DNA of 36,271 nt from a virus. The stretch lies in IMG/VR virus record IMGVR_UViG_3300042562_000386, positions 1 to 36,271 of that record. One strand, given 5' to 3'. Positions 1,101 to 16,994 of this stretch are shown in pieces. Position 1 is the first letter of the stretch. Every line of letters begins with the position of its first letter. The notes beneath the pieces are model-generated. The model searched no databases. It was not told the origin of the DNA and worked only from the letters and a program-made list of their open reading frames with translations. A program made the translations under genes and the position numbers.

Positions 1101-1619
1101 ATGGCTGGAGTAAAAATTACCGACTTAGAAACATTACTTGAAGCAGCAAGTGATGACTTGCTTTATATTGTGGATGTCAATGATAATACAGAAAGTCCAC
1201 AAGGAACATCTAAAAAGATTCAAGTTCAAAACATCGCTACTGCTATTGGATTGGAAAGTGGAAGCTACACTCCGACAATTAGCGGATATGTGAATGGCAT
1301 TGGTGCAAGTTTAAACGCTGCAACATATATTCGAGTTGGAAACGTGGCAACCGTTTCTGTACAATTGGAGATAACAATGGATTTTGGTGAAACAACTGGC
1401 GCATTTGAAATTGAACTTCCAGTTGCATCTAACTTTACAACTATTAAGCAATGTTTCGGCTTAATGCAATGGTCATATAATGGCACATTGGCAGAGATTG
1501 TAGGGCTATCAATTGGTGCAGAAACGACAAACAACACTTGCCTTGTTGATATTACAACTGCAAATGCTGAAGCAGCAATGCCTTACTGCACAATCCAATT
1601 CCAATATGAAATCCTCTAA
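1101..1619 (+). CDS. Small tail-fibre-like structural protein (172 aa)
   Basis: The N-terminus (MAGVKITDLETLLEAASDDL, then LYIVDV and a TSKKI stretch) is a common opening of phage structural proteins in Bacteroidota phages: a short lead, a D-rich 'value' phrase and then a fibre shaft. The rest is beta-rich with GSYTPTISG near residue 54. No enzyme motif is visible. It sits between fibre and endolysin genes and ends in TAATG, coupling it to the endolysin. A short tail fibre or fibre-tip protein is the best guess. Confidence 0.6.
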   Translation: MAGVKITDLETLLEAASDDLLYIVDVNDNTESPQGTSKKIQVQNIATAIGLESGSYTPTISGYVNGIGASLNAATYIRVGNVATVSVQLEITMDFGETTGAFEIELPVASNFTTIKQCFGLMQWSYNGTLAEIVGLSIGAETTNNTCLVDITTANAEAAMPYCTIQFQYEIL

Positions 1620-2077
1620 TGAACATAAGTAAGACTGGTATTCAGTTGGTCAAAGACTTTGAAGGTCTTAGGCTGAATGCATATAGGTGTTCAGCCAATG
1701 TGCCTACAATTGGCTATGGTTCGTGCTTTTATCCCGACAAATCAAATGTCAAAATGGGAGATGTATTGCGTGACAAAGAAGAGGCTGAGATATTATTGAT
1801 TAATACCCTTGAAGACTACGATATTTACGTAAGTAAGTACACCAAGTCAGTCAAGTTAACCCAATATCAGTTTGATGCATTGGTATCATTTGCCTTTAAT
1901 GTTGGTTTAGGCAATCTCAGTAAGTCTACATTACTCAAGATGGTACTTAGTAACCCAAATGACCCTAAGATAGCAGCAGAGTTCTTGAAATGGAATCGTG
2001 GTGGTGGTGTAGTGTTGAAAGGTTTGACCAAAAGAAGGCAAAAAGAAGCAGAACTATATTTCAAGAAGGTCGTATAG
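1619..2077 (+). CDS. Endolysin, GH24 (T4-type) lysozyme
   Basis: This is a muramidase that cuts the glycan strands of peptidoglycan at the end of infection. At 152 residues it has the usual length of a single-domain phage lysozyme. The catalytic pattern E-x8-D/C-x5-T is present as E15 (in FEGLRLNAY), C24 and T30 (in PTIGYG). C24 takes the position of T4 Asp20; an E-C-T triad is known in P1 Lyz. Later family phrases are visible: QFDALVSFAFNVG (about 83-95) and a C-terminal GLTKRRQKEAELY. There is no signal peptide or SAR segment, so export should need a holin, and the next gene is a candidate. The start is set by the TAATG overlap with the previous stop. Confidence 0.93.
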   Translation: MNISKTGIQLVKDFEGLRLNAYRCSANVPTIGYGSCFYPDKSNVKMGDVLRDKEEAEILLINTLEDYDIYVSKYTKSVKLTQYQFDALVSFAFNVGLGNLSKSTLLKMVLSNPNDPKIAAEFLKWNRGGGVVLKGLTKRRQKEAELYFKKVV

Positions 2078-2083
2078 TAGTTT

Positions 2084-2293
2084 ATGGCTATCGACCCTAA
2101 GAAATTCAAACAAATAGCTGACTTACTTATGGTGTATTGGCACTTGACTATTGGTTCACTCATATCTGTGGTTGGTTTTTGGCTATTCTTTACTAAGAAG
2201 ATAGACAAGGAGTCATTTGCATATATCATTGGTGCAGTAGTGACCTTAAAATGGGTGTGGAAACCATCTGAGAAAGGAGGTTCAGATGTTTGA
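2084..2293 (+). CDS. Small membrane protein, holin candidate (69 aa)
   Basis: Two hydrophobic segments are visible, at about residues 20-36 (HLTIGSLISVVGFWLFF) and 45-59 (FAYIIGAVVTLKWVW), separated by a charged turn (TKKIDKES), with a short charged C-terminus. Two membrane helices, small size and a place just after the endolysin are the usual signs of a class II-like holin, which would form holes that release the endolysin. No family-specific motif was recognised, so function rests on topology and position. Confidence 0.6.
   Translation: MAIDPKKFKQIADLLMVYWHLTIGSLISVVGFWLFFTKKIDKESFAYIIGAVVTLKWVWKPSEKGGSDV
2273..2280 (+). promoter_or_regulatory. Shine-Dalgarno sequence before the 2286 gene
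   Basis: AAAGGAGG lies 5 bases before the ATG at 2286. A perfect Shine-Dalgarno is striking here because other starts in the window are preceded by A/T-rich sequence without one. It also encodes the end of the holin candidate (EKGG), so it may be partly fortuitous. Confidence 0.5.
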
Positions 2294-2777: not shown

Positions 2778-3347
2778 ATGTCAGCAATATACATCTTAGC
2801 CAATTCTATTGACTTGTTGTATGTAGTTTCTGACTATGAGGGTAAGATAGTTAGTTCTAATGACCTCTTCAAAGAGTATTCATCTCACATCAAACCTAAG
2901 AAGGTAAGTGATATCATAACAGATGATACTGAGTTAGATGATTATGTACAATCTGTTAAGAGAGCCATTGAGATTACACCTAACCCAGTAAGAATATATG
3001 CACGAACTAAGCAGAAAAATAGTGGGTTAAGGTGGGTGTTGTGGAACTGCTACGCTATACTTGGTTCACTACACTTTATTGGTTTTCAAATAACAGATGT
3101 GACATCAATCACCAGCCACGAACACGAGAAGCAAAAGCAGTTACTTGAGGAGTTTAGATTTATGCTATCTCACGAACTAAGGCAGCCTTTAACATCAGTT
3201 GCTGGAGTGGTTAAGTTGCTGCTTGATAAAGAGGGTAAGATGGAAGATTTAGAGCAGACTGAACTACTCAAGATGGTTGATGATTCAATGAAAAGACTTG
3301 ATGAATCAATATACGCATTAGTTAAGAAAGCAACAAGGCAATTATGA
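2778..3347 (+). CDS. PAS domain plus histidine phosphotransfer (DHp/HisKA) protein without ATPase domain
   Basis: Residues ~5-112 read as a PAS domain: DLLYVVSDYEGKIVSSND at the start and WNCYAILGSLHFIGFQITDV as the final strands. A short linker helix (HEHEKQKQLLEEF) leads into a clear HisKA H-box, FMLSHELRQPLTSVAGVVKL, with H132 the phospho-acceptor and the usual E-L-R/x-P-L after it. A second helix (about 162-187) completes the two-helix dimerisation domain, and the protein then stops at 189. The N, G1, F and G2 boxes of the HATPase domain are absent, so it cannot autophosphorylate alone. By family knowledge it could form dimers with host kinases, accept or drain phosphate, or block signalling. 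No membrane segment is seen. It overlaps the next gene by ATGA. Confidence 0.85.
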   Translation: MSAIYILANSIDLLYVVSDYEGKIVSSNDLFKEYSSHIKPKKVSDIITDDTELDDYVQSVKRAIEITPNPVRIYARTKQKNSGLRWVLWNCYAILGSLHFIGFQITDVTSITSHEHEKQKQLLEEFRFMLSHELRQPLTSVAGVVKLLLDKEGKMEDLEQTELLKMVDDSMKRLDESIYALVKKATRQL

Positions 3348-3544
3348 GAGAATGTACTTTACCAATGGATGAAGAAGAAGCAGATGAAAGACTGCTAATT
3401 GTGGTGAAGCATTATGTGACTGAGAGAGAAATGCCAATCTATGTAGCTAAGAATGTATTGAGGTCAAACCTAAGAGATAAGTCATGCTTTGAATTAAAGT
3501 GGGAAAAGTTCATTAAGTTAATTGGTGGTTATGGTATCAAATAA
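3344..3544 (+). CDS. Hypothetical small protein (66 aa)
   Basis: A charged protein starting with an acidic patch (MDEEEADE) and carrying a helical middle. No motif was recognised. The ATG overlaps the stop of the PAS-DHp gene as ATGA, so the two are probably translated together. It is about the size of a receiver-interacting or phosphotransfer accessory, but it has no conserved Asp/Lys receiver pattern, so no function is assigned. Confidence 0.5.
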   Translation: MRECTLPMDEEEADERLLIVVKHYVTEREMPIYVAKNVLRSNLRDKSCFELKWEKFIKLIGGYGIK

Positions 3545-4208
3545 ATTTGATTCAATTGATAAGGTGTTGATGATTGTTGGTGGTATGGTTATGCTGCTTA
3601 TCTTCATTCATACTTGTGGAATGAATGGTCAACTTACTATTGACTATCGTAAGATGAAAGAAGAGGTGCAGAATTATAAGGTGCAGCACATGGCAGACTC
3701 AAGTAAGTTGATTAGTCAGGCGGTCAACTATCAATCTGAAATTGATTCAAGAGATATGGCAATTAAGTTGTTAGCCATTCGCAATCCTAAAGAGGTAGTC
3801 AAGATTAAGTATAAGACCATCGTTAAAACCAAGATTCAACTTGCTGAACCTATCACAATTGATTCAAGCAATTACATTAAGCTACCACTTGAATTCTCAG
3901 ATTATAATGAGTGGTATTCGATTGATGGAAAAATTGACTCTATAGGAAGCCTTGTAATAGACTCAATTATATCAAGTGGTACTTTGAGCTATTCGGTAGG
4001 AGATACGTTAAGAGATGGTTTATTTAATAGGTTACTGAGAAAAAAGGATAGTGTAGTTAGATTGCACATTGATAATCCTACTATGTCAATCACTAACCTT
4101 TCCAATATCTACGTTAAGAAAGAAACCAAGTGGTATGAATCTACTGCATTTAAGATAGGTGTTGGTGTTTTATTGGGTATTGGATTGAGTAGCCAACTAA
4201 TCAAATAG
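3531..4208 (+). CDS. Envelope protein with N- and C-terminal hydrophobic segments, spanin-like candidate (225 aa)
   Basis: I chose the ATG at 3531; an upstream TTG at 3522 only adds three residues. Layout: one strong membrane segment at about 12-30 (VLMIVGGMVMLLIFIHTCG), a coiled-coil-like stretch (about 37-75, RKMKEEVQNYKVQHMADS), a beta-rich middle and a glycine-rich hydrophobic end (FKIGVGVLLGIGLSSQLI). This resembles the widespread Bacteroidota phage protein with N-terminal anchor, coiled coil and terminal hydrophobic helix next to lysins. An inner-membrane spanin role is plausible; homology is not shown. It is the last gene before the 4209-4361 promoter region. Confidence 0.6.
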   Translation: MVSNKFDSIDKVLMIVGGMVMLLIFIHTCGMNGQLTIDYRKMKEEVQNYKVQHMADSSKLISQAVNYQSEIDSRDMAIKLLAIRNPKEVVKIKYKTIVKTKIQLAEPITIDSSNYIKLPLEFSDYNEWYSIDGKIDSIGSLVIDSIISSGTLSYSVGDTLRDGLFNRLLRKKDSVVRLHIDNPTMSITNLSNIYVKKETKWYESTAFKIGVGVLLGIGLSSQLIK

Positions 4209-15270: not shown

Positions 15271-15717
15271 ATGGAAGCACAAGACGAACCAAACAAGGGA
15301 GGTAGACCAACTAAGTACAAGGAGGCATTCAATGACCAAGTCTTTGAAATGGCTCTTCTTGGTTTATCAGATAGCCAAATGGCAAACATCTTAGGTATAA
15401 CTGAACAAACATTAAACAATTGGAAAACCGAACACCCAATGTTTTTTGAGTCATTAACGCAAGGGAAAGAGAATGCTGATGGCAAAGTGGCTAAGGCAAT
15501 GTACAAACGTGCATTAGGTTTAACCATCATTGAAGAGGCACTAACTAAGGATGGTCAGATAGTACAACTAAGAAAAGAGTTACCACCTGATACTCCAGCA
15601 GCAAAGCATTGGTTAGCTAATCGACAAAGGAAACTTTGGGCAAACAATGGTGAAAGCACGATGTACACAACTGAGCCACTAATCATCATAAGGACTGAGG
15701 GAGACAAAGATGAATGA
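15271..15717 (+). CDS. terS: Terminase small subunit (148 aa)
   Basis: N-terminal GGRPTKYKEAFNDQVFEMAL followed by a helix-turn-helix (LGLSDSQMANILGITEQTLNNW, about 29-50, where 'NNW' begins the recognition end) and a central oligomerisation region ending LPPDTPAAKHWLANRQRKLW. This is the usual layout of TerS: DNA recognition, ring core and C-terminal TerL contact. It starts packaging by binding the pac or cos site. It overlaps TerL by ATGA. Confidence 0.88.
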   Translation: MEAQDEPNKGGRPTKYKEAFNDQVFEMALLGLSDSQMANILGITEQTLNNWKTEHPMFFESLTQGKENADGKVAKAMYKRALGLTIIEEALTKDGQIVQLRKELPPDTPAAKHWLANRQRKLWANNGESTMYTTEPLIIIRTEGDKDE

Positions 15718-16994
15718 GTTTCAAATTAACCAAACGTCAAACAACTGCATACGACCTTGCAGTTAATGGTGTTAAGAAAGTAATAGTCTTTGGTGGCGCA
15801 ATTCGAGGTGGTAAGACCTACTGGTTACTACTAACTCTATCATCACTCTGTTTACTCTACCCACGTTCAAGATGGGTAATCATTCGTAAGACCTTACCTG
15901 ATTTAAAACGTACTACCTTTCCATCATTCAGTTCAATACTTAACGATGGGTTAAATCAATACATTAGTTCATGGAATCGTGAGACCAATGTTGTTACGTT
16001 CACCAATGGTAGTGAACTAATCTTCATGGCTGAATCATATGATGATGATAAAGACTTGAATAGGTTCAGAGGGTTAGAAGTGAATGGTGCTGGTCTTGAC
16101 GAAGTAAACGAACTACAAGAAGCAACATTCTACAAGGTGCAAGAACGTATAGGTAGTTGGAATAAAGCTATAGGTCAAGCACCAATAGTATGTTTGGCTA
16201 CTTGCAACCCAGCTAACAATTGGGTTAAGTCAGTTATCTATGAAAGGTGGAGAAACAATACACTACCTGATAAGTGGTGCTACATCAACTCACGCATCAC
16301 AGATAACCCATACATAAGTCAAGACTATCTTGAGTCACTTAAAGAACTACCACCAATTCAATATGCACGATTCGTAGAAGGTGACTGGGATGTAATGGAT
16401 GAAGTAAACAATCCATTCTTGTATGCATGGAATGATGATTTACACATAGACGATTCACTTACTATTAATCCTAACCTACCAGTATTTATCTCAGTCGATT
16501 TCAACATTAACCCATTGTCAGCATTAATTATTCAGCAACACACCACTAAAGGTTGTTCAGTAGTTGGTGAAATAAACATAGACAAGGGTAGTATAGATGC
16601 CTTCTGTGATTATGTTGAAAGTCTTAATGTACCACGTGGTCTACTTAGGATAACTGGGGATGCAATGGGCAATGGTAGAAGTATTCAGCAACGTGATAAT
16701 AGTTCAGCCTACACCCAAATCAAAAGAAGGTTGCACCTTGCAGATAGTCAGATAATCATACCAGCTAATCCTACCCACTACAATAGTAGAATAGACTGCA
16801 ATAACGCACTAACACGACTTGACATTAAAGTTAACTCTGTTAGGTGTAAAGGTTTTGTGTATGATGCTAAACAAGTACAATGTAATGCTGATGGTGGTAT
16901 CATTAAATCAAATAGAAAAAACCTATCTGAACGTGCTGACTTTTTAGATTGTTTTCGTTACTTTGTCAATTCAATTTTAAAAAGATATCTATGA
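15714..16994 (+). CDS. terL: Terminase large subunit (426 aa)
   Basis: ATPase domain: Walker A GGAIRGGKT (27-35), a Walker B region GAGLDEV (125-131) with catalytic E130, and motif III CLATCNPAN near 165. Nuclease domain: VDFNINP (about 262), TGDAMGNG (about 313) and ERADFLDCFRY near the C-terminus provide the acidic metal-binding residues. This is a full-length TerL motor. Its type (headful or cos) cannot be set from motifs alone; the circular assembly agrees with a permuted genome but does not prove it. Confidence 0.95.
   Translation: MSFKLTKRQTTAYDLAVNGVKKVIVFGGAIRGGKTYWLLLTLSSLCLLYPRSRWVIIRKTLPDLKRTTFPSFSSILNDGLNQYISSWNRETNVVTFTNGSELIFMAESYDDDKDLNRFRGLEVNGAGLDEVNELQEATFYKVQERIGSWNKAIGQAPIVCLATCNPANNWVKSVIYERWRNNTLPDKWCYINSRITDNPYISQDYLESLKELPPIQYARFVEGDWDVMDEVNNPFLYAWNDDLHIDDSLTINPNLPVFISVDFNINPLSALIIQQHTTKGCSVVGEINIDKGSIDAFCDYVESLNVPRGLLRITGDAMGNGRSIQQRDNSSAYTQIKRRLHLADSQIIIPANPTHYNSRIDCNNALTRLDIKVNSVRCKGFVYDAKQVQCNADGGIIKSNRKNLSERADFLDCFRYFVNSILKRYL

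Follow-up and report, generated by a model that had tools for sequence, protein, structure and literature searches.

The phage DNA analysed here (36,271 nucleotides, hereafter the window) encodes a 189-residue protein in which a PAS sensor domain is followed by the complete DHp hairpin of a histidine kinase, and which ends there without an ATPase domain. Its gene belongs to the core of the lysis cassette: a group of environmental phages keeps this signalling half-enzyme as strictly as the endolysin, and at a fixed place among the lysis genes. With slightly less than even confidence, we propose from the sequence that the protein acts as a PAS-gated, stand-alone phosphoacceptor or phosphotransfer module, which would work in trans with two-component proteins of the host. 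A few unrelated proteins are known through which phages control the two-component signalling of their hosts; if the PAS-DHp protein exchanges phosphate with host proteins, the bacterial sensory network would be an input to late infection. The features of the window are collected in Table 1.

Table 1. Coordinates of the features discussed in the window.
Feature	Position	Strand	Basis and remarks
Endolysin (phage lysozyme), first conserved cassette gene	1619..2077	+	PF00959 Phage_lysozyme, E = 6e-38; synteny
Small membrane protein, putatively holin-like	2084..2293	+	69 aa, hydrophobic segment
o162, fast-evolving, C-terminal hydrophobic segment	2286..2774	+	KD segment at 125; dN/dS 0.28
PAS-DHp protein, histidine-kinase half without ATPase domain	2778..3347	+	189 aa; ORF, HisKA match, AF2 model, relatives, dN/dS
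PAS domain, residues 13-105, then DVTSI (DIT-like) motif, 107-111	2814..3092	+	Model secondary structure, VIA, tblastn, ThkA alignment
DHp helical hairpin, residues 113-188	3114..3341	+	HisKA match and model
Phosphoacceptor H132 and kinase-specific E133 of H-box SHELRQPL	3171..3176	+	H 78/78, E 78/78 in family
o66, small soluble protein	3344..3544	+	Start overlaps PAS-DHp stop (ATGA) in window
o228, last conserved cassette gene, N- and C-terminal hydrophobic segments	3531..4208	+	KD segments at 9, 203; synteny
Terminase large subunit homologue	15714-16994		No insert

Domain composition and predicted structure

The open reading frame begins with ATG and ends with TGA. A Pfam scan of its product returned a single domain above the cut-off, HisKA (PF00512), at residues 129-178 (E = 2e-9; 37.8 bits against a curated cut-off of 26.9), and the same profile is matched by 78 of 78 relatives. 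The phosphoacceptor, H132, lies within SHELRQPLTS and is encoded by codon 3171-3173. No HATPase domain was found by the scan in the 189-aa frame; the protein is not a complete sensor histidine kinase, which would carry HATPase_c in cis.

The PAS domain went undetected by Pfam in the window protein, and PAS_9 was matched in only two of the 78 relatives (best E = 0.03). This half of the assignment therefore needed structural evidence. An AlphaFold2 model built on a 78-sequence alignment (mean pLDDT 78, pTM 0.53) contains a PAS fold at residues 13-105 and a complete DHp hairpin, with helix 1 at 113-150 and helix 2 at 157-188, while the orientation of the domains in the model is uncertain at this pTM. 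An earlier prediction from 24 close sequences was poor (pLDDT 49) and was discarded. The PAS elements of the model (strands 13-18, 23-27, 71-78, 84-94 and 97-105; helices 29-34, 43-46 and 50-65) make up a five-stranded PAS fold with helices between strands 2 and 3. VIA-align gave a Z of 14.5 over 93 residues, at 1.9 Å, to PAS-B domains, ARNT PAS-B among them, and the best solved match in Foldseek was the chimeric LOV-histidine kinase 8a52 (E = 2.9e-7). Cellulophaga phage phi19:1 appeared as a weak match in the structural library.

At the sequence level, PAS-HisKA proteins encoded on plasmids align over residues 6-189 (tblastn), and the phage profile aligns with the end of the PAS domain and the DHp of ThkA (3a0r), running through the DVT motif. 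The earlier note had described a PAS sensor and a complete H-box DHp domain that end cleanly without HATPase; the HisKA match, the AlphaFold2 model and the absence of HATPase from the frame bear this out, and the structure prediction that it had proposed as a check yielded both folds (AlphaFold2, Foldseek, VIA). Since the protein has no strongly hydrophobic segment, it is probably cytosolic. We take it to be soluble and probably dimeric.

Conservation of the family and its place in the lysis cassette

Relatives of the PAS-DHp protein were confirmed by tblastn on at least 295 contigs of IMG/VR, and 175 loci, some of them on the same contigs, were read, yielding 95 distinct sequences that are about 51-97% identical. 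Their lengths are 183, 188 or 189 residues, and every intact copy read ends at the same point, with TGA or TAA as the stop codon, a shared domain end of the kind that the earlier note had suggested looking for in relatives; the shorter copies examined (L022, L036 and L038) run off the end of their contig. A HATPase domain just downstream in close relatives, which would have spoken against that note, was not encountered, the open frame past the stop extending for at most 67 aa and mostly for less than 25. Recent truncation or frameshift is ruled out by the end that all intact copies share.

Within the close clade, the dN/dS of PAS-DHp is 0.077, compared with 0.105 for the endolysin and 0.28 for o162, values that are rough because dS is high. 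The same-length relatives, the shared end point and the dN/dS of 0.077 set the protein far from chance. These observations also bear on the idea that a kinase gene was captured and that this is its remnant, recent or neutral, an idea that has the missing catalytic domain as its sole point in favour: it is contradicted by the common end, by the dN/dS and by the presence of the gene in 19 of 19 near-complete contigs, and can scarcely be credited.

The family overlaps two PHROG entries, phrog_10912 ('kinase'), whose HMM match spans DHp and PAS in 21 of 21 members, and phrog_857 (unknown), which matches over the DHp in 19 of the 21. Both profiles are much longer, the PAS-DHp matches covering only part of them. 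In the divergent copies L166 and L175 the H-box reads SHELLSPLSS, with H, E and P retained and R and Q lost, and six residues are deleted where DHp helix 2 begins. A direct family search for hosts or prophages found no PAS-DHp relatives on genome contigs, and among GenBank phage records the matches were limited to weak, local HisKA similarity in records of Listeria phages and of a single faecal phage. No description of the phage family was found in a literature search whose coverage left out most subscription journals and preprints.

The gene order in the relatives examined is endolysin, holin-like, o162-like, PAS-DHp, usually o66, and o228. The holin-like gene sits between endolysin and PAS-DHp in most relatives, and some carry extra genes inserted between those two; o228 is possibly spanin-like. 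In close relatives that carry o66, the PAS-DHp gene is always just upstream of it. Nineteen contigs longer than 33 kb that had been chosen by their terminase (8 previously known carriers and 11 new) each hold exactly one PAS-DHp copy. The gene also occurs in five phages without a recognisable homologue of the window terminase (G007, G008 and G010-G012), and in the two of these that were read (L039 and L040) the cassette is identical in layout. With regard to lysis, to which the earlier note had linked the protein, the neighbourhood is real and the position conserved; the link is supported as conserved gene position and not as function.

A fixed place of this kind would suit a sensor or scaffold of lysis, in which the PAS domain would respond to a cytoplasmic signal and the DHp would be no more than a dimer stalk, binding the holin, o66 or o228 so as to time lysis. 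The place is kept in all lineages examined, including the phages without a recognisable window-terminase homologue, and the stop codon of PAS-DHp overlaps the start of o66, both of which agree with such a role. It leaves the invariant phosphoacceptor and kinase-specific residues unexplained, however, and PAS-DHp is kept in L380 and L381, where o66 is not recognisable and o228 follows directly. We regard this explanation as decidedly unlikely, and o66 as an obligate partner is rejected by the same two loci.

Other genes of these phages gave observations of their own. The dN/dS of o162 stands against 0.05-0.12 for its neighbours, yet its cassette position is constant. Terminase genes of seven relatives (L328, L332, L334, L336, L361, L363 and L369), otherwise 86-97% identical to that of the window, carry a 41-nt insert at about locus positions 294-334. 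It splits the Walker A codons (A-I-R^G-G-K-T), is not a multiple of three, contains an in-frame stop and folds into a hairpin of 9 bp that has a GAAA loop and shows compensatory changes (CCCCTTGCA/TGTAAGGGG, CCCCTCATA/TGTGAGGGG). It was found in two of 40 whole records searched, once in each. The insert has features of a translational-bypass element, and other causes are possible. On the L028 contig (IMGVR_UViG_3300037493_001386; 62,297 bp) the terminase gene is present as two homologues, which share 93% and 76% identity with that of the window; this suggests two joined phages or a misassembly.

Active-site residues, partners and the proposed mechanism

Across the 78 relatives, H132, E133, P137, L138, S140 and G143 are invariant, and R135 and T139 are each kept in 76. 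The core of DHp helix 1 (residues 122-145) is the most constrained part of the protein, at 0.22 bits against 0.97 for the PAS domain and 1.25 for helix 2. At H+4 the residue is Gln in 75 sequences, Ser in two and His in one, and never Thr or Asn. For HisKA proteins, Willett and Kirby reported that kinase activity, but not phosphatase activity, requires the acidic residue at H+1, that phosphatase activity, but not kinase activity, requires Thr or Asn at H+4, and that N375Q in CrdS abolishes phosphatase activity, with none measurable (PMC3510030). That E133 is retained thus suggests that the protein is phosphorylated by a catalytic domain acting in trans, and the loss of Thr/Asn at H+4, mostly in favour of Gln, argues against dephosphorylation of partners. 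The phage protein is not a bifunctional, phosphatase-competent HisKA protein, which has Thr or Asn at that position. Read in this light, the conservation of H132 and E133, both invariant, and of the Gln at H+4 makes for specific and simple predictions: the phage DHp would be a phosphoacceptor, served in trans by a catalytic domain, and would have no phosphatase activity.

The same residues weigh on the suggestion in the earlier note that the protein dephosphorylates its partners, which is now disfavoured. A phosphatase or phosphate sink would strip phosphate from host response regulators; the DHp is indeed the phosphatase unit of bifunctional kinases, and a free half-kinase can be a phosphatase, as in CheA3 (PMC3591291), but the H+4 residues of the family and the inactive CrdS N375Q (PMC3510030) make it very unlikely that the phage protein works in this manner. 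A sink through reverse transfer to H132 is possible.

HATPase_c and Response_reg were both absent from 29 near-complete phage records of 32-62 kb, the window included, while all 14 control genomes were positive for each. Both a catalytic domain on a separate phage protein and a phage-encoded response regulator are thereby rejected as candidates. As each phage of this set has one clear HisKA gene, the partners would have to be host proteins. Action in trans on host two-component proteins is the most economical reading and agrees with the sequence. The host is probably a member of the Bacteroidota, an assignment that we hold weakly: the only matches of the portal protein are to Polaribacter phages (22.8% identity), the top-listed phage match of the terminase is a Bacteroides phage, and the only genome match of the terminase family is in a Fibrisoma montanum contig (30%).

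The lack of a catalytic domain in the 29 phages searched would also fit a dominant-negative decoy, whose DHp would bind the response regulator of a host kinase or pair up with one of its protomers, and so block signalling without any phosphate chemistry. A phage precedent exists in PIT4 of LSL4, which binds kinase domains, although it is an unrelated protein of 131 aa without a conserved domain (PMC10714779). A decoy needs interface residues and not H132 or E133, however, and both of these are kept in 78 of 78 sequences, whereas the loop and large parts of helix 2 are variable; we therefore consider a decoy rather unlikely.

Under the phosphotransfer reading that we prefer, PAS-DHp would supply, in trans, one half of a split kinase or of a phosphorelay. 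The catalytic domain of a host histidine kinase, through a heterodimer or a transient contact, or else a phosphorylated host receiver, would phosphorylate H132, and the phosphoryl group would then pass to a host receiver protein, or be withdrawn from one, presumably late in infection, a timing that we assume solely from where the gene lies. How readily this exchange happens would depend on the PAS domain or on its ligand. Least certain is the net effect, which may be to couple the state of the host to late events, lysis timing among them, or, alternatively, to silence a stress or envelope response of the host while lysis proceeds. The more specific scheme of a virus-host split kinase, in which the phage PAS sensor decides via host two-component signalling when the late or lysis programme proceeds, we hold to be unlikely.

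Relation to cellular DHp proteins and known systems

A DHp without a catalytic domain has cellular precedents. In SMART, 3.66% of HisKA proteins are without HATPase, and the HATPase and HisKA of EnvZ stay active as separate polypeptides (PMC3591291); the architecture itself is therefore not new to biology.

The phage profile found weak matches in 328 of 395 Bacteroidota genomes. Among the best 33 Bacteroidota loci, from two samplings, 13 encode proteins that end 4-20 aa after the DHp and have no catalytic domain, whereas none of the 30 strongest HisKA proteins in two such genomes did so, a control that is biased to strong HisKA matches. By Pfam, their architectures include REC-PAS-HisKA and MASE11-PAS, and HATPase was confined to full kinases encoded next to them. 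Immediately upstream of three loci (L232, L234 and L235) there is a full kinase, that of L235 being judged by eye from sequence, and three (L232, L236 and L257) adjoin receiver-like genes, likewise judged by eye. These neighbours suggest that the cellular class may carry out phosphotransfer, and the REC-PAS-DHp and PAS-DHp proteins without a catalytic domain are apparently a little-described, though common, class of Bacteroidota phosphorelay proteins, to which the phage protein draws attention.

The phage protein shares the architecture of these proteins (L228, L229, L232, L234-L237, L244, L245, L247, L254, L257, L258, L263 and L264), namely a C-terminal DHp, usually after a PAS domain, directly after which the protein ends; many of them also have a similar LDxVI..V.KK/NKA ending. 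They differ in often carrying a REC or other N-terminal domain and in often missing the acidic H+1, retained in seven of 16, whereas the phage protein is minimal, retains the HE pair and is encoded in a lysis cassette. Because the acidic residue is often missing, the cellular relatives may work differently from the phage protein. In a free DHp tree the phage family forms one group, placed with the proteins that lack a catalytic domain (support 80/70); in a restricted tree with AU tests on trimmed columns, the alternatives had p = 0.60 and 0.66, so that common descent with these proteins is no more than a possibility. Proteins of the cellular type were not found in viral contigs with one motif pattern, which is weak evidence of absence.

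Spo0B is a dimeric DHp-type hairpin that serves as a phosphotransfer intermediate. Spo0B and ChpT lack a PAS domain and still carry, C-terminally, a degenerate catalytic-like domain; Pfam and the model give no such C-terminal domain for the phage protein. The proposed role would liken the phage protein to these histidine phosphotransferases, since in ChpT, too, the intermediate of phosphotransfer is a dimeric hairpin of the DHp type (PMC3433190).

The CheA3/CheA4 split kinase of Rhodobacter has its phosphoacceptor and catalytic domain on separate proteins, as would the phage protein together with a host partner, but the phosphoacceptor of CheA3 is a P1 domain and not HisKA, and both proteins are encoded by one genome (PMC3591291). 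PIT4 of the Pseudomonas phage LSL4 disturbs several two-component systems; it is the product of an early gene and has no known homologues in related phages (PMC10714779). What the PAS-DHp protein may have in common with PIT4, in our proposal, is that a phage protein is directed at the two-component kinases of its host.
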